Of a stretch of 64,000 bases of DNA, positions 37,953-49,814 are shown piece after piece (within the stretch, counting starts at the first letter, position 1; the number at the start of each line of letters is the position of its first letter). A program made the translations under genes and the position numbers. Source of the DNA: Caballeronia sp. SBC1 (GTDB lineage Bacteria > Pseudomonadota > Gammaproteobacteria > Burkholderiales > Burkholderiaceae); NCBI RefSeq assembly GCF_011493005.1, contig NZ_CP049158.1:1364001-1428000 (forward strand), written 5' to 3'. The notes beneath the pieces are model-generated. The model was not told the DNA's origin, made no database searches, and saw only the letters and a list, made by a program, of their open reading frames with translations.

Positions 37953-39344
37953 CTACATCACGGGCAAATGAAGATGATGAGGATGTTCGACGGTGTCTGC
38001 AATCAGACTGAGCGCGTCTTCGCATTCATCAAGATTCTTCGGGCCGCCAAGGCATACGCGAATGGCTTCGGGCGGATTGCCATCGGTCGCGAAAGCCGCC
38101 GCTGACACCGCGCCAATCCCTTGCGAACGCAACTGCAATGCAAGTTCCGAAGCATTCCATCCGCACTCCGCCGGGATGGGCATCCACAAATGGAAACCGG
38201 CCGGATCGGCGTCGAACTTCCAGTGCGATAACACTCGCGCGGCCAGCTCCTGACGCGCCGCGGACTCCGTACGAATCGCGTCGAGCATGAGGTCTGCTGT
38301 ACCGTCGCCGACCCACTGCGTCGCCATCAGCACGGTAAAGGGGCTAGCCATTACCGTCGTCGCGCGCAGCGCTCCGGCAAGATGCTGGGAGCGCCGGGCG
38401 GACGGCGCACGAATGTAAGCAACGCGCAGACCAGCGCCAAAACTCTTGGAGAACCCCGTGACGTAATAAGTCAGGTCGGGGGCCAATGCAGCCAGCGCAT
38501 CGGGGGCCTGGACCGGTAACATGCCATACGCATCGTCTTCGATAATAGGCACGCTGTACCTTAGCGCGACATCGGCAAGCGCCTCACGCCGCTTCGACGA
38601 CAGCGTCACCGTGCTCGGATTCTGGATCGTAGGATTGCAATAGAACGCGCTGGGCTTATCACTCTTGCATAGCGCTTCGAACGAGTGAGCAAGCGGGCCG
38701 TCGTCATCTCGTGCCAGCGCCTGCAAACGCACGCCAAGTTGCGCCGCAATCGCCTTGATGCCCGGATACGCCAGCGTATCGAGGCAAATGGTCCCGCCCG
38801 GCCGCGCAAGCTGCGATACGAGCGCCACCAACGCGCTGTGAATGCCGGGACAGACGAGGACCTTGTCTTCATCGCAATCGTCGAAACGACGCTTCAGCCA
38901 TTTCGTTCCGGCAGCACGATCGTCAGCAGTGCCACCGAAATCCTGATACCTCAGCAGCCGATACGGATCCGTAGCCGAAAACAACCGCGCTGCTGAATCG
39001 CGCAAGCGTGCGGCGAGTTCGGCCGGCTCAGGCGGCATGTTCATGGTCATCTCGACACTACTGCCGCCGGACAGCGGCAGCGTTGCGGTCCGGCCGCGTA
39101 CGAATGTGCCGCTGCCGGCCCGCGAGTCGAGCAACCCTCTTTTGCGCGCTTCCGTGTAGGCCCGCGCCACGGTCGTGTAGTTGAGCTGCAGTTCATCGGC
39201 CAGCTCACGCAGGCCCGGCAGTCTATCCCGCGGACGCAAGCGCCCGCTCGCCAGATCTTCCTCAATTAACTCGGGAATCAGCAAATAAGCCGGCTTGCGG
39301 CTTTCTGTCAGCTTCCTGATCCAGTGATGAGTAAGACTGGCCAT
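37953..39344 (-). CDS. MocR-family regulator (GntR HTH fused to aminotransferase)
   Basis: A 463-residue protein. The winged helix of GntR type occupies about 10-75 (DRLPGLRELADELQLNYTTVARAYTEARKRGLL), and a type I aminotransferase-like PLP domain fills the rest, with Lys in YYVTGFSKSFGAGLR as the probable PLP ligand. MocR proteins bind DNA and sense PLP or PLP-amino acid adducts. The start is at MASLTHHWIRK. It is divergent from the Nit1C cluster across 422 bases holding repeated motifs near both promoters, so it is a candidate regulator of that cluster. Confidence 0.92.
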   Translation of the reverse strand: MASLTHHWIRKLTESRKPAYLLIPELIEEDLASGRLRPRDRLPGLRELADELQLNYTTVARAYTEARKRGLLDSRAGSGTFVRGRTATLPLSGGSSVEMTMNMPPEPAELAARLRDSAARLFSATDPYRLLRYQDFGGTADDRAAGTKWLKRRFDDCDEDKVLVCPGIHSALVALVSQLARPGGTICLDTLAYPGIKAIAAQLGVRLQALARDDDGPLAHSFEALCKSDKPSAFYCNPTIQNPSTVTLSSKRREALADVALRYSVPIIEDDAYGMLPVQAPDALAALAPDLTYYVTGFSKSFGAGLRVAYIRAPSARRSQHLAGALRATTVMASPFTVLMATQWVGDGTADLMLDAIRTESAARQELAARVLSHWKFDADPAGFHLWMPIPAECGWNASELALQLRSQGIGAVSAAAFATDGNPPEAIRVCLGGPKNLDECEDALSLIADTVEHPHHLHLPVM

Positions 39345-39406
39345 GAAACACTCTCGATTAAATACGGTTAAAAAACGATAGCACGCCCGCGACCCGAAAA
39401 AATAAA

Positions 39407-39420
39407 TTGATCGCATTAAG
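39407..39420. promoter_or_regulatory. Repeated motif TTGATCGCATTAAG, mocR-proximal copy
   Basis: Matches TTGATTGCATTAAC at 39642-39655 at 12 of 14 bases. Another TGATCG lies at 39430, exactly 22 bases (two helical turns) from the TGATCG here. It lies about 65 bases before the mocR start. MocR proteins usually bind direct repeats in such divergent regions. Confidence 0.5.
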
Positions 39421-39484
39421 TGCCACAAGTGATCGTATGGAGAATCCAGTAAATCGAGGGTCAATGCACATATCCGGTGTTTAT

Positions 39485-39534
39485 TGCACCAGACCGGCGC
39501 AACAGCACCAGGGCGATCACGCCACGCTGGTGCA
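39485..39534 (+). promoter_or_regulatory. NtrC-like half-sites upstream of the Nit1C promoter
   Basis: TGCACCA (39485-39491), GCACCA (39505-39510) and the inverted TGGTGCA (39528-39534) match the half-site of the NtrC consensus TGCACCA-N3-TGGTGCA, but the spacing is wider than normal (half-site centres 19 and 23 bases apart). They lie about 135-185 bases upstream of the sigma-54 promoter, a normal distance for enhancers. Confidence 0.4.
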
Positions 39535-39641
39535 GACCCACCGCCCTGTCGGGCCTGAGGCCAATCCCTGAAGGGCTCATCAGGATCGTTATCAAAAAAA
39601 TTCACGGCTTCACGCGCAATGATCGTTTGAATGATCGGATA

Positions 39642-39655
39642 TTGATTGCATTAAC
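39642..39655. promoter_or_regulatory. Repeated motif TTGATTGCATTAAC, nit-proximal copy
   Basis: Copy of the mocR-proximal motif. TGATCG is also found at 39620 and 39632, and the 10-base TTGCATTAAC is repeated perfectly at 39679, 33 bases (about three turns) away and overlapping the -12 element. A repressor bound here could block the sigma-54 promoter. Confidence 0.5.
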
Positions 39656-39667
39656 GCGCTCATTGAA

Positions 39668-39683
39668 TGGCACATCCGTTGCA
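39668..39683 (+). promoter_or_regulatory. Sigma-54 (-24/-12) promoter of the Nit1C cluster
   Basis: TGGCACATCCGTTGCA fits the RpoN consensus TGGCAC-N5-TTGCA at every defined base, with the invariant GG and GC at the required spacing. It lies 84 bases before the first Nit1C gene and on the right strand. This predicts nitrogen-limitation control and need of an AAA+ activator. Confidence 0.88.
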
Positions 39684-39766: not shown

Positions 39767-40249
39767 ATGCCTGCCGTCAATATCCCGATGCACAAGAAAG
39801 GCGATTACCTTGTCGATTATGAAGAGAAGGTGTTTGAAGACGTCAAGGCCGCGCCGGGCGAAAAGGCGCTGGTGACATTCCACACGGTCGCGTTTGAAGG
39901 TTCCATCGGCTTCGTCAACTTGCTGCAAGCCACCCGGCTGCTGCGCAAAGGCTTCGAAACCTCGGTGCTGCTGTATGGGCCGGGCGTAACGCTCGGGCTG
40001 CAACGCGGCTTTCCGACTCTCGGCGACGAAGCGTTTCCGGGCCATCTGAACTTCAACAAGCAGATCCAGAAGTTCATGGAGGAAGGCGGCAAGGTCTATG
40101 CATGCCGCTTTGCGCTGCAAGCGTTGTATGGCCAGGGAGAAGCGTCGCTGATCGAAGGCATCAAGCCAATCAGCCCGCTCGACGTGCTCGACATCCAGTT
40201 GCTGCATCGGAAAGACGGCGCGCTGATCATCAACACCTGGACTGTCTGA
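39767..40249 (+). CDS. MSMEG_0572/Sll0783-family nitrogen starvation response protein (Nit1C, NitB-type)
   Basis: A 160-residue soluble protein, first gene of the cluster, preceded by CCGGAG. It has the layout of a small DsrE-like fold ([38 protein letters not shown], with [14 protein letters not shown] and [13 protein letters not shown]). Homologues always accompany the Nit1C nitrilase in cyanobacteria, mycobacteria and proteobacteria, and the cyanobacterial one is induced by nitrogen starvation. Its molecular function is unknown. The conserved Cys in YACRFAL might be functional. Confidence 0.93.
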
Positions 40250-40284
40250 CGCAGGTCCGAAGCCTCTCATCACACGGAACGACC

Positions 40285-41298
40285 ATGCCCGACAAGAGAA
40301 TTGTCCGCGCCGCCGCGGTCCAGATAGCACCGGACCTCGCACGGCCCGGTGGCACCCTCGAGAAAGTCCTCGGAACGATCGACGATGCTGCACGCCAGGG
40401 CGTTCAACTCATCGTCTTCCCCGAGACGTTCCTGCCTTACTACCCGTACTTTTCTTTCGTGCGGGCGCCGGTGGCATCGGGTGCCGAACACATGCGTCTC
40501 TACGACGAAGCCGTAGTCGTTCCCGGTCCGGTGACGCACGCGGTGGCGGAGCGGGCGCTGCGGCACGGCATGGTCGTCGTGCTCGGCGTGAACGAGCGCG
40601 ATCACGGCAGCTTATATAACGCACAACTGATCTTTAATACTGACGGCGAGCTGCTGCTCAAACGCCGCAAGATCACGCCGACGTTTCACGAACGGATGAT
40701 CTGGGGCATGGGCGACGCGGCCGGCCTGAAGGTAGCGGAAACCAGCATCGGCCGAGTGGGTGCGCTCGCATGCTGGGAGCACTACAACCCGCTCGCGCGT
40801 TATGCGCTGATGACCCAGCACGAAGAGATTCATTGCAGCCAGTTTCCGGGCTCGCTGGTCGGTCCCATCTTTGGCGAACAGATTGAGGTGACCATCCGGC
40901 ATCACGCACTGGAATCCGGCTGCTTCGTGATCAATTCCACGGGCTGGCTGACCGAACCGCAGATCGAGTCGATCACGAAAGATCCCGGCCTGCAGAAGGC
41001 GCTTCGCGGCGGCTGCAACACGGCGATCATCTCGCCCGAAGGCCAGCACCTGGCCCCGCCGCTGCGCGAGGGCGAAGGATTGGTGATTGCTGACCTGGAT
41101 ATGTCGCTGATCACTAAACGCAAACGCATGATGGATTCGGTTGGCCATTACGCGCGGCCCGAATTGCTGAGCCTCGCGATCAACGACCGGCCGGCAGTCA
41201 CGTCGGCACCCATGAACAGCTTCTCACCTTCAACCGGGGGATTGCACCTTGAACGCGAACGAGACCTTGTCGGCCGTGAGCCGGCAATTGATGACTGA
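40285..41298 (+). CDS. Nitrilase of the Nit6803/Nit1C type (NitC-type)
   Basis: A 337-residue carbon-nitrogen hydrolase starting at the ATG 40285. The catalytic residues are Glu 47 ([12 protein letters not shown]), Lys 129 ([10 protein letters not shown]) and Cys 163 (ACWEHYNPL). Purified relatives such as Nit6803 convert aliphatic and aromatic nitriles to acids and ammonia. In Pseudomonas fluorescens the Nit1C cluster is linked to growth on cyanide as nitrogen source. The natural nitrile here is unknown. The gene overlaps the radical SAM gene by up to 50 bases. Confidence 0.95.
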
Positions 41299-42367
41299 AC
41301 TGCAATCGGCGGGCTTGCGTCTCGCCGATCCGGACGCGGGTCTCAGCGTGGCCAGCCGTCGCGGCGGCGCGGGTCCGTCCGATCACAAGGCGGTCACCAT
41401 CGACGGCGTGACCATCATGGTGCCTGTGCATACGAACACCGCTTGGCACTCGCCGTTCGTGGCATCCGCACCCGACGCCCACGGCAGCAGCGCGTTGTTA
41501 CGCGGCTCGATCCCCATCGCAAACATCAGCTTCCCGAAGGCGCCGCGTTTCTACGCCATGCAGACCTTCGACGGCGTGCCCTACTCGCACATCGCTACGC
41601 TGCATGGTTCGGACGTGCTTGCCACGACCGTGCTGCAAACCTGCATCCGGTACGAAAGCCGCAAGAAGACCTGCAAGTTCTGCGCTATCGGGCAATCGCT
41701 TGCGGCCGGCAGGACGATCGCCCGCAAGACGCCCGAGCAATTAGCGGAAGTCGCGCGCGCAGCCGTGTTGCTCGATGGCGTCAAGCATATGGTCCTGACC
41801 ACCGGCACCCCGCCGACGAAGGATCGTGGTGCGCGGATCCTGTGCGAAAGCGCGTTCGCGATCAAGGCCGCAGTCGACCTGCCGATCCAGGCGCAATGCG
41901 AACCACCCGACGACGACAAGTGGTTCGAGCGCATGCGTGCAAGCGGCATCGATACGCTTGGCATGCATGTCGAAGTAGTCACGCCCGCGCTGCGTGAACA
42001 GCTCATGCCGGGTAAGGCGAGCGTACCCATCTCGCGCTACATGGAAGCCTTCAGGGCGGCCGTGGCGGTCTTTGGCCGGGGGCAGGTGAGCACCTACATC
42101 CTCGCGGGTCTCGGCGACACTGCCGAAGCCATTCTCTCTATCTCGCGCGAGCTGGTGGATCTCGGCGTGTATCCGTTCGTGGTCCCGTTCGTGCCGATCA
42201 GCGGCACGCCGCTCGAGGATCATCCCGCACCCTCGCCGGAGTTCATGAAGTCGGTCTTGCAGCCACTCGGCGCGATGGTGTCGGCGGGCGGCATGCGCTC
42301 CGCCGATATCAAGGCGGGCTGCGGCAAATGCGGCGCGTGTTCGTCGTTATCATCCTACGAGGTCTGA
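41249..42367 (+). CDS. MSMEG_0568-family radical SAM protein (Nit1C, NitD-type)
   Basis: A 372-residue protein from the TTG at 41249; ATG at 41291 (358 residues) is the other possible start, overlapping the nitrilase by eight bases. The SAM/4Fe-4S cysteines lie at 132, 142 and 145 (C-x9-C-x2-C), not the usual C-x3-C-x2-C. A C-terminal cluster, Cys 358, 361 and 364 (CGKCGAC), may bind a second Fe-S centre. It resembles biotin-synthase-like barrels ([22 protein letters not shown]). The reaction is unknown; a role in making the nitrilase substrate or modifying its product is possible. Confidence 0.92.
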
Positions 42368-42369
42368 TC

Positions 42370-42930
42370 ATGCTCGCCGATACCGAAGATCTTGCAAGGC
42401 TCTACACCCCCGCTAGCTTCACGATCAAGTGGACCACGCTGCCGTGGGAAGCGAACGAAGCGTATAAGCTGCGGCGGGCGGTGTTCTGCATCGAGCAGGG
42501 GATTTTTATCGGCGATGACCGCGATGAAATCGATGAACGCGCGCAACTGCTCGTGGCGGTGAGTTGTGTTGGCGGAATGCCTGAGCAGGTGGTCGGCACG
42601 GTGCGCATTCACGAGGGTGAAGTTGGTGTATGGACCGGCTCGCGGCTCGCCGTGCATGCTGCGTTTCGGCGGCATGGCAAGATTGGCGCAACACTGATCA
42701 AGCTGGCGGTCAGCAGCGCGCACGCGCTTGGCTGCACGACTTTCCTCGCCCATGTGCAAAGCCAGAACGCGCCGTTGTTTCATGCGCTGCACTGGACCAC
42801 GCTCTCTGAAGAACTCATGCATGGCCGGCCGCATCATCTGATGCAGGCGGACCTCGCGTTCTACCCGCCTTGTGCGACACCGCGAAGCGGTTTCACCACG
42901 CAGCATTCGCCCGCGCGGATCGCGTCATGA
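42370..42930 (+). CDS. MSMEG_0567/Sll0786-family GNAT N-acetyltransferase (Nit1C, NitE-type)
   Basis: A 186-residue acetyltransferase starting two bases after the radical SAM stop. The GNAT core is clear: YKLRRAVFCIEQGIF, VVGTVRIHEGEVGVWTGSRLAV and the acyl-CoA loop RRHGKIGATLIKLAV. It belongs to the subfamily found only in Nit1C clusters. Its stop overlaps the next start (ATGA). Substrate unknown. Confidence 0.92.
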   Translation: MLADTEDLARLYTPASFTIKWTTLPWEANEAYKLRRAVFCIEQGIFIGDDRDEIDERAQLLVAVSCVGGMPEQVVGTVRIHEGEVGVWTGSRLAVHAAFRRHGKIGATLIKLAVSSAHALGCTTFLAHVQSQNAPLFHALHWTTLSEELMHGRPHHLMQADLAFYPPCATPRSGFTTQHSPARIAS

Positions 42931-43898
42931 CGGTGGCCGACCTCGTCGCCGCGTTAAGGGAAACGCGCGGCTTTCGCCACAAGACCGATATCGCGGGCGT
43001 GATGTCGACGCTTGCCCGGCATTTGCCGCGTGGCGCTTCCATCGACTCAAAAGCGGTCACCATAGGCGACGACTGCGCGGCCATTGCCGACGGGGACTCT
43101 CACCTGCTGTTCGCCATCGAAGGGCTGGTCAGCGACTTCGTGCGCGACATGCCCTGGTTCGCAGGCTACAGCAGCGTGATGGTTAACGTCAGCGATATCT
43201 ACGCTATGGGCGGCCGCCCGATCGCTGTCGTCGACGCACTCTGGAGCGACGGTCTGGGCGCGGCTGAAGACGTGCTGGCGGGTATGGCGGCGGCATCGAC
43301 CGCCTACGGCGTGCCGATAGTCGGCGGCCATAGCAATACACGCAGCGATCAGGCTCAACTTGCCGTTGCCATTCTCGGACGCGCGAACACACTGCTGTCC
43401 AGTTTCAATGCTCGCCCCGGCGACAGCCTGATGATGGCGGTCGATTTACGTGGCGCGTTTGAAGATCCGTATCCGTTCTGGAATGCATCGGTCGGCGCAC
43501 CCTCCGCGCGCTTGCGTGCCGACCTTGAGTTGTTGCCGATGCTCGCCGAAAGCGGTCTCTGCGATGCCGCCAAGGACATCAGCATGGCCGGCACGCTCGG
43601 CACCGCGCTGATGCTGCTCGAATGCTCCGGCGTGGGCGCCAGCATCGATCTTTCGCGTCTGCCCGCACCGCCTGCACACGATCGTCTGCGCTGGTTAAGC
43701 GCGTTTCCCAGCTTCGGCTTCGTGATGTCCGTGCGTAAAGAACACACAGATCAGGTAGCGCAGTTGTTCGTTGAACGTGAGCTGGCGTGCGCGGTGATTG
43801 GTACGGTCGATGCCTCGCGCAAAGTGGTGCTGCACGAAGGTGGCCAATCGGCGGAGTTGTGGAACTTCGACGACGACGCGTTCATCGTCGGAAGCTAA
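42927..43898 (+). CDS. Sll0787-family AIR synthase-like protein (Nit1C, NitF-type)
   Basis: A 323-residue protein of the PurM/ThiL/HypE/SelD superfamily, starting in the ATGA overlap. The ATP/metal-binding motifs are present: VTIGDDCAAIADGD, the dimer and ATP-binding VNVSDIYAMGGRPI and IVGGHSNT. The superfamily uses ATP to activate an amide, carboxylate or phosphoryl acceptor. HypE, a relative, dehydrates a thiocarbamate to a cyano group, so a nitrile-forming step is conceivable here. That link is inference. Confidence 0.92.
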   Translation: MTVADLVAALRETRGFRHKTDIAGVMSTLARHLPRGASIDSKAVTIGDDCAAIADGDSHLLFAIEGLVSDFVRDMPWFAGYSSVMVNVSDIYAMGGRPIAVVDALWSDGLGAAEDVLAGMAAASTAYGVPIVGGHSNTRSDQAQLAVAILGRANTLLSSFNARPGDSLMMAVDLRGAFEDPYPFWNASVGAPSARLRADLELLPMLAESGLCDAAKDISMAGTLGTALMLLECSGVGASIDLSRLPAPPAHDRLRWLSAFPSFGFVMSVRKEHTDQVAQLFVERELACAVIGTVDASRKVVLHEGGQSAELWNFDDDAFIVGS

Positions 43899-43909
43899 CG
43901 GAGCCTGAC

Positions 43910-45091
43910 ATGACCTCCACTGCGGCGCCTCGTTTAATGCGGATTGCCCTCACCACGCACTCGGTGAATCCGCGCGGTGGTGTGGTGCACGCGCTGGAAC
44001 TCGCGAGCGCGCTTGTTGACGAAGGCCACGACGTGACGCTCTTCGCGCCGGCAGCGGCCGGAGAATCGCTCTTCCGGGAGCCGCCATGCCGCGTGATTCT
44101 CGCTACCATCGAAGGCCCGCAACACAACACAGTCGCACTCGTCGACGCGCGGCTGCGCGCGCTCAAAGCCTGCATCAAAGCCTGCGATCCACGAAGTTTC
44201 GACGTGCTGCACGCGCAAGACAGCATCAGCGGAAACGCGCTTGCCGAGTTGGCCGCTGAAGCTGAAATAGCAGGTTTTGTACGGACCGTTCATCACCTGG
44301 ATCACTTCGACAACCCGCGCCTCGCCGCCTGGCAAACCCGTGCATGGCGGGATGCAGACCGTGTGCTGTGCGTGAGTGAAGTATGGACGCGCGAGATGCG
44401 CGAAAAGTACGGGATAACAGCAGCGACGGTGCCGAACGGCGTCGATCTTAAACGCTATTCGACCCAGCGGACGCATCACGATGAACGATTACGGCAGCGT
44501 CTTGGAATTGATGGCAGCGGACCGGTCGTACTGGCAGTCGGTGGCATTGAAGCGCGCAAGAACACGCTCCGCCTGCTCGATGCGTTCGCGGAACTGGTCA
44601 AACATCATCCGCACGCGTGTCTGGTGATCGCGGGCGGTGCAAGCCTGCTCGATCACGACGCTTACGCCCGAGCCTTCATGGATCGCGTGGCGGGGTTCAA
44701 GCTGTCGCAAGCGGTGAGCGTTACCGGTCCGCTTGATGACGCCGACATGCCTGCGCTTTTTCGTTGTGCCGATGTCCTCGCCATGGTCTCGCTGCGCGAA
44801 GGTTTCGGCCTGGTCGTCCTCGAAGCGCTTGCATGCGGCACGCCGGTCGTGGCGTCGAACATTGCGCCGTTCACCGAATACCTGGACAACTCGCTGTGCT
44901 GCTGGGCCACGCCCACCGATCCAGCGTCAATAGCTGACGCGCTCGAACGTGTGATCGATGGCCGGCATCCAACCGACTTCAATCATGCCGTGCCCGCGCT
45001 GCTCGATCGCATGAGCTGGCAGGCATCGGCAAGAAAGCACCTCGACATTTACAGCGCCTTGCTTGCAAGCCGCTCTCTTCCAACCCTTTAG
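43910..45091 (+). CDS. MSMEG_0565-family glycosyltransferase in Nit1C cluster
   Basis: A 393-residue GT-B, family 4-type glycosyltransferase. The donor-binding half contains VLAVGGIEARKNTLRLLDAF, SVTGPLDDADMPALFRCADV and the EX7E motif REGFGLVVLEALACGTPVV. It starts 11 bases after the AIR synthase-like gene. Some Nit1C clusters (cyanobacteria, mycobacteria) include this gene, while the compact Pseudomonas clusters usually lack it. It suggests that the pathway intermediate or product is glycosylated. Confidence 0.93.
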   Translation: MTSTAAPRLMRIALTTHSVNPRGGVVHALELASALVDEGHDVTLFAPAAAGESLFREPPCRVILATIEGPQHNTVALVDARLRALKACIKACDPRSFDVLHAQDSISGNALAELAAEAEIAGFVRTVHHLDHFDNPRLAAWQTRAWRDADRVLCVSEVWTREMREKYGITAATVPNGVDLKRYSTQRTHHDERLRQRLGIDGSGPVVLAVGGIEARKNTLRLLDAFAELVKHHPHACLVIAGGASLLDHDAYARAFMDRVAGFKLSQAVSVTGPLDDADMPALFRCADVLAMVSLREGFGLVVLEALACGTPVVASNIAPFTEYLDNSLCCWATPTDPASIADALERVIDGRHPTDFNHAVPALLDRMSWQASARKHLDIYSALLASRSLPTL

Positions 45092-45100
45092 GAACCCGTC

Positions 45101-45385
45101 ATGCCGGTCATGCATTTTCTAATCCAGTGGCCCGATAACAGCGAAGAAAACTGCTATTCGCCATCGCAAGTGGTCAGCGATTTCTTCACGCCGGGTGAGG
45201 ATTATCCGCTCCAGGACTTCGTCTTGCGCGCCCGTGAAGCGCTGAACATTGCCTCGGAACGCGTGCGCGAAAAGTACGGCTTTGCATGCTCGGCGGCAAT
45301 GGACCAGCTCGCGCAGATTGAAGTCGAAGCCGAACGCTTTCTCGGTGAACCGGACGCGAAAGTCCGGGTCATCGCGCTCGTCTGA
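45101..45385 (+). CDS. MSMEG_0570-family nitrogen starvation response protein (Nit1C)
   Basis: A 94-residue soluble protein with the family pattern MHFLIQWPDNSEENCYSPSQVV and a helical C-terminal half (VREKYGFACSAAMDQLAQIEVEAERF). Cysteines at 18 and in GFACSA could be functional. Strictly associated with Nit1C clusters; function unknown. It lies nine bases after the glycosyltransferase gene. Confidence 0.92.
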   Translation: MPVMHFLIQWPDNSEENCYSPSQVVSDFFTPGEDYPLQDFVLRAREALNIASERVREKYGFACSAAMDQLAQIEVEAERFLGEPDAKVRVIALV

Positions 45386-45411
45386 GCGCCACTCTTTCGA
45401 AAGGACGAATC

Positions 45412-46692
45412 ATGTCGCAAACATCGGGCAACGCGACGCACGCCAGCGTCATTGTGGTGGGTGGCGGTCAGGCAGGATTGTCTGTCAGCTATTACCTGAA
45501 GCAAGCGGGTATCGATCATCTCGTGCTGGAAAAAAACACGGTGACGCATACGTGGCGCACGCAACGCTGGGATGCGTTTTGCCTGGTCACGCCGAACTGG
45601 CAATGTGCACTGCCCGGCTACCCCTACACCGGCGACGATCCGCATGGCTTCATGAAGAAGGACGAGATCATCGAGTATCTCGATGGCTTCATCAGGACGG
45701 TCGATGCGCCGGTGGTCGAGCACGTGGAGGTGCAGCGGGTCACACGTAATAGCGAAGGCGGCTTCGGTGTATCCACCGATCAGGGGCGGTTCACGGCGGA
45801 CCAGGTCGTGGTAGCGTCAGGCGGTTATCACACGCCAATCGTGCCACGCATGGCAGAACGCCTGCCGCGTTCCATTAAACAAATCCAGTCGTCGGAATAT
45901 CGCAACCCGCAGGCTTTGCCCGAAGGCGCGGTACTAGTGGTCGGATCGGGCCAATCGGGCGCGCAGATCGCGGAAGACCTGCATCTGGCCGGACGCAAGG
46001 TAATTCTCGCCGTAGGCGAAGCGCCGCGTTGCGCGCGCTTTTACAGAGGACGCGACGTGGTCGACTGGCTCGCTGACATGAAGTATTACGACATGCCGGT
46101 CGATCAGCATCCACTGCGTGAAGGCGTACGCGACAACACCAATCACTATGTGACCGGGCGTGATGGTGGCCGTGATATTGATTTTCGCAAGTTCGCGGCC
46201 GAGGGCATGGAACTGTACGGGCGGCTTCAGGATCTGCAGGACGGTGTACTTCATTTCGCCCCCAACCTGAGGGAGAATCTCGACAGCGCGGACAAGACCT
46301 TCAACGGCATCAACGCGGGAATCGATGCGTACATTGAAAAGAATGGAATCGAAGCCCCGCCAGGATCGCGCTATGAGCCCGTTTGGTCGCCTGCGGAAGA
46401 ACGCACCACGCTCGATCTGCAAGCGAGCGGAATAGGCTCGATCGTGTGGTGCATCGGCTTCACGCCGGACTTTAGCTGGCTCGATGCGCCAATTTTCAAC
46501 GGCTGCGGTTATCCTGCGCACACGCGTGGCCTGACCCCGCTGGACGGTCTCTATTTTGTCGGCTTGCCGTGGCTGCATACGTGGGGATCGGGCCGCTTTT
46601 CTGGCGTTGCCCGGGACGCCGCGCATGTTGTGGAGAGGATCCGCGCGTGCCGGGAAGCGAAAGCGCCGGCGCGCGATGAAGCGACCGTCTGA
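45412..46692 (+). CDS. MSMEG_0569-family flavin-dependent oxidoreductase (Nit1C, NitH-type)
   Basis: A 426-residue flavoprotein of the FMO-like class. The FAD fold [13 protein letters not shown] lies at about 17-30 and the NAD(P)H fold [15 protein letters not shown] in the middle. [13 protein letters not shown] and [11 protein letters not shown] are further marks. It probably N-hydroxylates or oxidises an intermediate; FMO-type enzymes can turn amines into oximes, precursors of nitriles. That suggestion is inference. Last gene of the operon, followed by a terminator. Confidence 0.94.
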
Positions 46693-46749: not shown

Positions 46750-48280
<1,531 letters not shown>

Positions 48281-48305
48281 CCACTCAATGTGGTTGCTAT
48301 AAATA

Positions 48306-49814
48306 CTACGCGCTGGCAATCCGCGCCGTCGGGCGCTTGCCCATCTTCATCCATGCGCCATAAACAATCGATGCGAGCGCAAGGCCCACGAACCATGCAT
48401 AGGTGTAAAGCGTGTTGAAGAATGCGGGTACGTTGGGAAACGCTCCTGGAAATGCCGTGTGCAGGAAGCCGGGCAAGTTGGGCAATACACCCACGAGCAA
48501 CGCGACCACCGCTGCCATGTTCCAGCCACCCGTGTAGCTGTATTCGCCATTCTCGTTGAAGAGTTCGCGCGTGTTCAGGCGCGTGCCGCGGATCAGGAAG
48601 TAGTCGACCATGAGAATACCCGCCACCGGTCCGAGCAGCGCCGAGTAACCCACGAGCCACGTGAAAATGTAGCCCTGGGTAGTAGCTAAAATCTTCCACG
48701 GCATCATCACAATAGCAATGAACGCGGTAATCATTCCGCCCACGCGATACGAAATCCCCTTCGGCCAGAGACTCGAAAAGTCATAAGCCGGACCCACGAG
48801 GTTAGCGGCCAGATTACAGCTCATGGTGTCGAGCGTCAGGATGACCAGCGCCACGCCCACGCCAATGCCCGTCATGCGGCTGGTCAGGTCGATAGGATCC
48901 CAGATCGCCTTGCCATAGATCACCACGGTAGCTGAGGTCACCACCACCGAGATGACGGACAGCAGCGCCATGGGTGCCGGCAGACCGATCGATTGCCCGA
49001 TGATCTGATCCTTCTGCGAGCGCGCAAAACGCGTGAAGTCCGGAATGTTCAACGCAAGCGTGGCCCAGAACCCGACCATGGCCGTGAGACCCGGCCAGAA
49101 GGTGGCCCAGAACATTCCCTCCTTCTTGCCGCCAGCGACGAACTGCGACGGCTGCGCGAGCATGGAGCCAAGACCGCCCGCCTTCGAGGTCGCCCACCAC
49201 ACCAGCGCGAGGCACATCACCACCTTGATCGGCGCGGACCAGCTTTCGAGGAAACGAATGGAGTCCGTACCGCGCAAGATGAAATAAACCTGGATCAGCC
49301 AGAAGAACAGGAAACACGCCAGTTGCCCGAGCGTGATGTCCAGGAAAGGCAGCGGCGTACCGGGCGTCGAGTTACCGGTGAGGATATTCAGGAGCGTATG
49401 GATCGCACTGCCGCCGAGCCATGTCTGGATTCCGTACCATCCGCATGCAACGATCGCTCGCAACAACGCCGGCAACCTCGCGCCTTTCGTACCGAACGAT
49501 GAGCGCACCAGCACGGCGTACGGAATGCCATGCTTCGCACCTGCATGACCGACCAGCAGCATGGGCACGAGCACGATCATGTTGCCGAGCAACACGGTCA
49601 GCACCGCCTGCCACGGCGACATGCCTTCCTCCGTGAGCCCGGCCGCGAGCATGTACGACGCAATATTCATCACCATGCCGACCCACAGCGCGGCAAAGTG
49701 ATACCACTTCCACGTCCGCTGCGCGGCCGTGGTTGGCGCCAGGTCGTCGTTATATAGACTACCGCTGGCGCCGGCCGCGAACTGCGGGTCGACGGAATGC
49801 GCTGTCTTCTTCAT
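48306..49814 (-). CDS. NCS1-family nucleobase:cation symporter
   Basis: A 502-residue membrane protein with about 12 segments and GAGGAGAT before the start. NCS1 motifs include TWKWYHFAALWVGMVMNIASY, the LGNMIVLVPML segment and NIPDFTRFARSQKDQ. The family imports uracil, thymine, allantoin or hydantoins with H+ or Na+. Its place inside the pyrimidine-catabolism operon points to uracil or a dihydropyrimidine. Confidence 0.94.
   Translation of the reverse strand: MKKTAHSVDPQFAAGASGSLYNDDLAPTTAAQRTWKWYHFAALWVGMVMNIASYMLAAGLTEEGMSPWQAVLTVLLGNMIVLVPMLLVGHAGAKHGIPYAVLVRSSFGTKGARLPALLRAIVACGWYGIQTWLGGSAIHTLLNILTGNSTPGTPLPFLDITLGQLACFLFFWLIQVYFILRGTDSIRFLESWSAPIKVVMCLALVWWATSKAGGLGSMLAQPSQFVAGGKKEGMFWATFWPGLTAMVGFWATLALNIPDFTRFARSQKDQIIGQSIGLPAPMALLSVISVVVTSATVVIYGKAIWDPIDLTSRMTGIGVGVALVILTLDTMSCNLAANLVGPAYDFSSLWPKGISYRVGGMITAFIAIVMMPWKILATTQGYIFTWLVGYSALLGPVAGILMVDYFLIRGTRLNTRELFNENGEYSYTGGWNMAAVVALLVGVLPNLPGFLHTAFPGAFPNVPAFFNTLYTYAWFVGLALASIVYGAWMKMGKRPTARIASA

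Follow-up and report, generated by a model that had tools for sequence, protein, structure and literature searches.

The Nit1C cluster of Caballeronia sp. SBC1 as a candidate biosynthetic operon: control region, optional genes and acyl supply in relatives

The Nit1C gene cluster of Caballeronia sp. SBC1 raises the question of what such an operon is for, the release of nitrogen from cyanide or the making of a product. The window analysed here is the whole stretch of 64,000 nucleotides at positions 1,364,001 to 1,428,000 of contig NZ_CP049158.1 (assembly GCF_011493005.1), and the cluster occupies positions 39767-46692 of it. In our judgement there is an even chance that Nit1C is a biosynthetic operon, switched by nitrogen starvation, that makes an N-acylated small molecule, nitrile hydrolysis being one step and cyanide use possibly a by-product. 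The product is read as a small acylated molecule because relatives append genes that make a propionyl building block. Comparison of sequences establishes the unity of the cluster, its gene order, its regulatory anatomy, the optional GT4 gene and acyl tails, and two partial modules that join a GNAT gene to propionyl genes. The cluster itself is of a known kind; what is new is the control region and the propionyl link. Described in 2005, Nit1C spans Proteobacteria, Cyanobacteria and Verrucomicrobia (PMC1199592) and occurs also in mycobacteria (PMC6039565), and its presence in genomes and metagenomes has been interpreted as indicating that cyanide or nitriles are used (PMC9716671, PMC10119275). 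Were the acyl-supply reading true, the question of the Nit1C pathway would become directly testable and this interpretation of nit1C would change.

Membership and order of the cluster

All eight Nit1C genes are present in order on the + strand, each over its own curated cut-off in an NCBIfam profile search, in agreement with an earlier reading of this locus made from the sequence alone (the sequence-only reading).

39767..40249, + strand: MSMEG_0572/Sll0783 family protein (0572), DsrE/YchN fold, conserved Cys113; TIGR04044, 283.9 bits
40285..41298, + strand: Nit6803-type nitrilase; TIGR04048, 570.2 bits; solved relative 3wuy, E=2e-145
41249..42367, + strand: radical SAM protein, start TTG 41249 or ATG 41291; TIGR04043, 600.2 bits
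42370..42930, + strand: GNAT N-acyltransferase; TIGR04045, 235.6 bits
42927..43898, + strand: AIRS/ThiL-like ATPase; TIGR04049, 469.2 bits
43910..45091, + strand: GT4 glycosyltransferase, optional member; TIGR04047, 520.4 bits
45101..45385, + strand: MSMEG_0570 family protein (0570); TIGR04042, 134.0 bits
45412..46692, + strand: FMO-like flavoprotein, MSMEG_0569 family; TIGR04046, 696.8 bits (next best ArsO, 138)

The tight packing described in the sequence-only reading, with overlaps of 4-50 bases, holds for two junctions, nitrilase/radical SAM (50 bp if the start is TTG 41249, 8 bp if it is the in-frame ATG 41291) and GNAT/AIRS (4 bp), but the other five are gaps of, in gene order, 35, 2, 11, 9 and 26 bp. 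Relatives were taken from 108 loci, comprising 80 from Burkholderiales (the best 80 of 182), 16 from Pseudomonadota genomes and 12 annotated plasmid regions; four of the 16 are Burkholderiales by kinship, and two of these are apparently the same places as loci in the Burkholderiales set. Flanks sufficed to judge completeness in 94 (66 Burkholderiales, the 16 and the 12), 14 Burkholderiales loci being dropped. Every one of the 94 complete loci has all seven core genes in the single order that the window shares, 0572-nitrilase-radical SAM-GNAT-AIRS-(GT4)-0570-FMO, which upholds the earlier view that the genes work as one unit. The 0572 and radical SAM families are, moreover, over cut-off in the identical 16 of 398 Pseudomonadota genomes, the window's own among them, and because of this co-occurrence and the order kept in 94/94 loci the arrangement exceeds chance.

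The set that had been called a conserved eight stands as to seven of its members; the eighth, GT4, is present in 54 of the 94 loci, always in the identical slot, and absent from 40. On one 88-row tree GT4 was gained or lost in at least 17 changes and the acyl-supply tail in 9. Comparing cluster content across genomes, as the sequence-only reading had proposed, thus bears out the core order, but GT4 and the tails vary, and Nit1C is best described, as far as gene content goes, as seven core genes plus an optional GT4, with the acyl-supply tail a further variable add-on. The window has the same seven families in the same order as the Nit1C of Podar et al. (2005) and nitBCDEFGH of Pseudomonas pseudoalcaligenes CECT5344, but differs in having GT4, and a MocR regulator in place of the sigma-54 activator NitA; a glycosyltransferase insertion in Burkholderia Nit1C has already been described (PMC1199592). 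The NCBIfam names of the window's families cite locus tags of the gpr cluster of Mycobacterium smegmatis (MSMEG_0565-0572), to which it is likened here by names and description rather than by sequence. The gpr cluster is reported to be induced by nitrogen starvation, a DsrE link being noted by its authors, but it is governed by GlnR rather than by NtrC, sigma-54 and MocR and has been studied as a peroxide-resistance/NADPH system (PMC6039565).

The control region

The Nit1C unit extends 5' of 39767 to include a promoter, a repeat box and a divergent MocR gene, whose protein joins a DNA-binding domain to one of the pyridoxal phosphate (PLP) type.

39668..39683, + strand: sigma-54 type -24/-12 promoter TGGCAC-N5-TTGCA, exact match
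39619..39648, + strand: direct-repeat box, WTGATYG units at 39619, 39631 and 39642, ending 19 bp 5' of the -24 element; proposed MocR operator
37953..39344, - strand: divergent MocR-type regulator, GntR DNA-binding plus aminotransferase-like PLP domain (Pfam GntR, Aminotran_1_2)
39407..39435, + strand: two more TGATCG units 22 bp apart (TGAT positions) near the MocR start, possibly an autoregulation site
39485..39501, + strand: NtrC-like site TGCACC-N5-GGCGCA, 1 mismatch, alone not above chance in the window

An unsupervised k-mer count over 35 intergenic regions first revealed an ATCAA/TTGAT repeat, together with the -24/-12 element. With GG/GC intact and up to two mismatches, the -24/-12 element precedes 75 of 78 Burkholderiales loci, against 7 at most in shuffles, and 20 of 23 further loci, against 4 at most (16 of 19 once their four Burkholderiales are removed). 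The case for a sigma-54 promoter rests on this conservation, because the exact motif occurs 9 times in the genome and 9 times in the reversed control. The box WTGATYG-N4-WTGATYG, at one mismatch or fewer, is present in 73/74 Burkholderiales loci (shuffles at most 2) and 9/20 further loci (at most 2), and lies 18-19 bp 5' of the -24 element in 71 of the 73 Burkholderiales loci that bear it. The claim made for the repeat box is limited to Burkholderiales; elsewhere the operator, if any, would differ. Among 41 Caballeronia-genus genomes, 13 contain box and TGGCAY in exact combination, with 14 occurrences in all as against none in the reversed control; 13 of the 14 are at Nit1C loci and the remaining one precedes the reduced operon at L228 described below. 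NtrC-like sites with up to two mismatches, a dyad that an NtrC regulon would be expected to have 100-200 bp upstream, accompany 41/75 Burkholderiales loci (shuffles at most 4) and 5/20 further loci (at most 2), the enrichment being weak in the latter. Upstream of Nit1C, Podar et al. (2005) are reported to have found no conserved transcription factor site (PMC1199592). GlnR of M. smegmatis is reported to bind upstream of MSMEG_0572 (PMC4222082), and the operon under its control to be induced over 500-fold when nitrogen is removed (PMC6039565). At G000:C2:1516183-1516255, TTGATTG units arranged in tandem every 11 bp give six matches to the proposed MocR box.

The MocR start was set at Met88 of the open frame 37953-39605. 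Of the 94 complete loci, 91 have a MocR gene no more than 6.5 kb from the radical SAM gene (89 divergent, 2 on the same strand), and a divergent MocR is separated from 0572 by 150-700 bp in 94 of the 97 loci measured. The three complete loci that lack it are L177, L180 and L190, and the two of them that were scanned, L177 and L190, have instead a PAS sigma-54 activator comparable to nitA, the sigma-54 activator of Pseudomonas nit1C (PMC11049912). The window regulator has the GntR head, aminotransferase domain and PLP lysine that mark MocR/GabR proteins; K300 (the PLP lysine), D270 and R429 are invariant in 98/98 sequences, window included, the roles of these residues being assigned by analogy. 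Its best NCBIfam match is EhuR, at 375.4 bits under a cut-off of 480, and it does not qualify as an EhuR equivalog. The ectoine-use regulators EnuR/EhuR, of which EnuR is reported to sense N-acetyldiaminobutyrate by its primary amine (PMC8739950), are thus the nearest model, and the PLP lysine is kept, but the window MocR falls under the curated cut-off and sits at a sigma-54 promoter.

Acyl supply and partial operons in relatives

Tails were surveyed in 95 loci with at least 2.5 kb past the flavoprotein gene, counting genes on the same strand. An acyl-supply tail is present in 30 (18 in the Burkholderiales set, 3 in Pseudomonadota genomes, 9 on plasmids), of the LnmK-like type in 26, 19 of these with a methylmalonyl-CoA mutase as well, and of the AMP-forming ligase type in 4. 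No more than 100 bp separate the LnmK start from the flavoprotein match in 25 of the 26, the exception being L166 (1.5 kb). Among the loci in which LnmK and mutase occur together are L067 and L079, of Cupriavidus necator. All four LnmK-like proteins scanned (L183, L187, L191, L228) are over cut-off for both TIGR04098 and TIGR04099, and the one tail mutase scanned passes PRK09426 (990 vs 876 bits). TIGR04099 is over cut-off in 5 of the 398 genomes, 3 times next to Nit1C and twice in genomes without Nit1C. Enzymes of the LnmK type are reported to turn methylmalonyl-CoA into propionyl-S-ACP, the thioester of the acyl carrier protein (ACP) (PMC9396626). The relatives' tails share the LnmK family, often beside methylmalonyl-CoA mutase, with leinamycin-type supply (LrgK, PMC9396626), and a propionyl thioester would be expected; they differ in that neither ACP nor HMG synthase was seen beside LnmK, its partner there being the GNAT, and the window has no such genes.

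The best match of all three tail ligases scanned is propionate-CoA ligase, at 458-551 bits. At the position of Val386 in Acs, which we take to belong to the acetate/propionate pocket and where Ala presumably favours propionate, E. coli PrpE and 4/4 tail ligases have Ala, with Trp414 kept. The four form two pairs, each 38-39% identical to E. coli PrpE and 32-34% to one another; because each pair is closer to E. coli PrpE than to the other pair, this suggests that ligases were recruited twice. They probably work like PrpE, identity as PrpE not being supported. The LnmK/mutase and ligase routes are unrelated, yet both appear to lead to a propionyl thioester.

Two partial operons bear on the destination of this acyl group. 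At L095 (Ralstonia sp. NFACC01) three consecutive genes, a second GNAT, LnmK and mutase, separate MocR from the full cluster, and an exact repeat box accompanies them. At L228:4699-10001 (genome G024, contig C74) a reduced operon, 0572-GNAT-FMO-LnmK-mutase, is preceded by an exact repeat box and a 1-mismatch sigma-54 site, its mutase extending beyond the 10 kb region examined; G024 also has a full Nit1C cluster on a different contig. Neither module has a nitrilase, radical SAM, AIRS or 0570 gene of its own in the DNA seen. Such modules are rare, a second full-length GNAT over cut-off being found in G024 only among 61 related genomes, and the G024 reduced operon could be a deletion remnant. Both nevertheless keep the GNAT with propionyl genes, and for that reason they are the strongest indication that the GNAT is the intended recipient of the acyl group.

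A possible pathway and its competitors

These data allow a model in which MocR would bind the repeat box and sense a primary-amine pathway compound via PLP, while NtrC and sigma-54 would report nitrogen shortage. The radical SAM enzyme, the AIRS ATPase and the flavoprotein would construct or modify a scaffold, to which the DsrE-fold protein may carry sulfur and which GT4 may glycosylate. The nitrilase would hydrolyse a nitrile intermediate, and activity on cyanohydrins would account for growth on cyanide. The GNAT would transfer a short acyl group to the amine, acetyl or, where tail genes exist, propionyl. Two sources of propionyl are proposed: succinyl-CoA, converted by methylmalonyl-CoA mutase and the LnmK-like decarboxylase/acyltransferase, and propionate, activated by a PrpE-like ligase. 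We infer that the amine acylated by the GNAT is the one sensed by MocR, and that this product, rather than ammonia from cyanide, is the purpose of the operon. For the window operon acetyl is just as likely an acyl group, the acyl-tail part of the model being carried over from relatives. In line with the sequence-only reading, no paper was found that establishes the individual reactions.

The radical SAM protein has the motif C-x9-C-x2-C in 105/105 sequences, the canonical C-x3-C-x2-C spacing being absent, a C-terminal C-x2-C-x2-C no more than 12 residues from the end in 93/105, and seven Cys positions conserved at 98% or more; the window protein passes Pfam Radical_SAM (49.2 bits vs a cut-off of 29.5) and is, judging by its sequence, a superfamily member with a variant motif. 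A distant relative of the radical SAM domain (103-122 bits) lies at L150-L163 inside longer frames, mostly of 870-940 codons and mainly from a single Pseudomonadota family, f57. Of 24 aligned GNAT members, 23 match Pfam FeeM (N-acyl amino acid synthase) at E<=0.01, the window's own scoring 24.9 bits against a cut-off of 27. Protein 0572 has the DsrE/YchN fold and the conserved Cys, with Pfam DsrE under cut-off (18.2 vs 22.7). The fold predicted for the 0570 family (94 aa) is confident, with no clear match in the PDB, and Cys63 is identical in 55/55 aligned sequences.

The tie between Nit1C and cyanide assimilation in Pseudomonas, cited in the sequence-only reading, is supported (PMC11049912), and a catabolic role has mutants behind it, NitC and nit1C being stated to be essential for cyanide assimilation (PMC11049912, PMC8567248). 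Cyanide would react non-enzymatically with a keto acid and the nitrilase would release ammonia from the resulting cyanohydrin, while the remaining genes would serve to protect the nitrilase or keep it supplied. For P. pseudoalcaligenes CECT5344 and P. fluorescens NCIMB 11764 the pathway has been described as one in which NitC hydrolyses a 2-hydroxynitrile, with nit1C essential (PMC11049912), and 3-cyanoalanine raises NitC and other nit1C proteins (PMC8567248). However, a single nitrilase would suffice for this, leaving the GNAT, AIRS, radical SAM and GT4 proteins and the acyl tails unexplained, and the conserved PLP site of MocR would, by analogy with known MocRs, read amines and not cyanide. 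The M. smegmatis cluster affects peroxide resistance and the NADPH/NADP ratio (PMC6039565) and Synechocystis sll0783 mutants show NADPH and polyhydroxybutyrate changes (PMC3901256), the available text of neither report mentioning cyanide; these phenotypes therefore favour the biosynthetic reading. Catabolism as the function of the operon thus appears rather unlikely, although biosynthetic and catabolic roles can both be true. The nitrile had also been proposed to arise within the operon, the AIRS protein dehydrating an amide in the manner of HypE before the nitrilase hydrolyses the product. An AIRS superfamily ATPase does adjoin the nitrilase, and the HypE chain 2z1e is among its weak sequence matches (E=3.7e-6), but ThiL is the nearest solved family (E=1.8e-10), and after its own family the NCBIfam matches are methanogenesis marker 2 (219.9 bits) and then, among characterised families, ThiL (88.3 bits), with HypE not among the 16 families listed. 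HypE forms its cyano group on a C-terminal cysteine. The catalytic Cys by which HypE is recognised is missing from the window protein, which ends DDDAFIVGS, and none of its Cys is conserved at 98% or more of 105 aligned sequences, window included. A nitrile formed only to be hydrolysed at once would waste ATP as well. The idea of a nitrile-making HypE/PurM-like ATPase accordingly lacks support, this route is highly improbable, and any make-then-hydrolyse scheme is incomplete, omitting the N-acyltransferase, the relatives' acyl genes, the DsrE-fold protein and the optional glycosyltransferase, all of which fit small-molecule assembly better than nitrile turnover alone. Another candidate is a redox metabolite that contains sulfur, or a redox cycle based on it, in which the DsrE-fold protein would carry a persulfide, the radical SAM enzyme insert the sulfur, the GNAT and GT4 complete the molecule along the lines of mycothiol-like routes and the flavoprotein recycle it. 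It draws on the DsrE/YchN fold with its conserved Cys and on the peroxide resistance that the gpr cluster confers (PMC6039565). In addition, the radical SAM protein ends in C-x2-C-x2-C and is weakly similar to LipS2 and LipA, while GT4 has minor matches to MshA/BshA/SenB and the flavoprotein to YpdA. The GT4 and YpdA matches are, however, typical of large superfamilies, LipS2 scores 45.7 bits against a cut-off of 270, no sulfur-source gene was seen in the operon, the nitrilase has no obvious place, and sulfur carriage by Cys113 is only putative, all of which makes this cycle quite unlikely.

The biosynthetic reading has, besides the Pseudomonas mutants, a number of observations to contend with. 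The window operon has no acyl tail and its genome no TIGR04099 match, 65 of the 95 surveyed loci are likewise tailless, and LnmK proteins load an acyl carrier protein, yet none was identified in the operon. The tail ligases lie far under the curated PrpE cut-offs of 827-955 bits, and their substrate is therefore not settled; the curated GNAT name is acetyltransferase, and the nearest solved relatives are general GNATs (SACOL1063, 1q2y). As to control, the sigma-54 site of the L095 mini-operon is poor, with 3 mismatches, and no MocR match was found in 10 kb around the L228 mini-operon. Outside Burkholderiales the repeat box is in only 5/16 loci, with the 18-19 bp distance in 1, and NtrC-like sites are in 3/16 listed loci; the radical SAM gene is in 26 Caballeronia-genus genomes, the exact box-promoter composite in only 13. 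We give somewhat less than an even chance to the boldest form of the biosynthetic reading. In this form Nit1C would not serve to consume cyanide but would assemble a widespread, as yet undiscovered metabolite of nitrogen starvation, an amine that bears a propionyl or acetyl group on nitrogen, is glycosylated in some cases, may contain sulfur and protects redox balance. In Burkholderiales its control would follow an unusual logic, with an amine-sensing MocR switch 19 bp upstream of a sigma-54 promoter.

The closest genome contigs to the window locus are of the C. sordidicola group, and the plasmid-collection record closest to the window radical SAM protein, at 99.7% identity, is that of Caballeronia sp. 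SBC2. The Nit1C radical SAM gene also occurs in plasmid records of Klebsiella (373) and Escherichia (30), with about 67% identity to the window's gene among those listed, and Nit1C is a common passenger in the plasmid records of these genera. Next to the cluster, at 46750-49814 on the opposite strand, lie genes for a dihydropyrimidinase and an NCS1-type transporter, close homologues of which are near the cluster only in Caballeronia-group loci.

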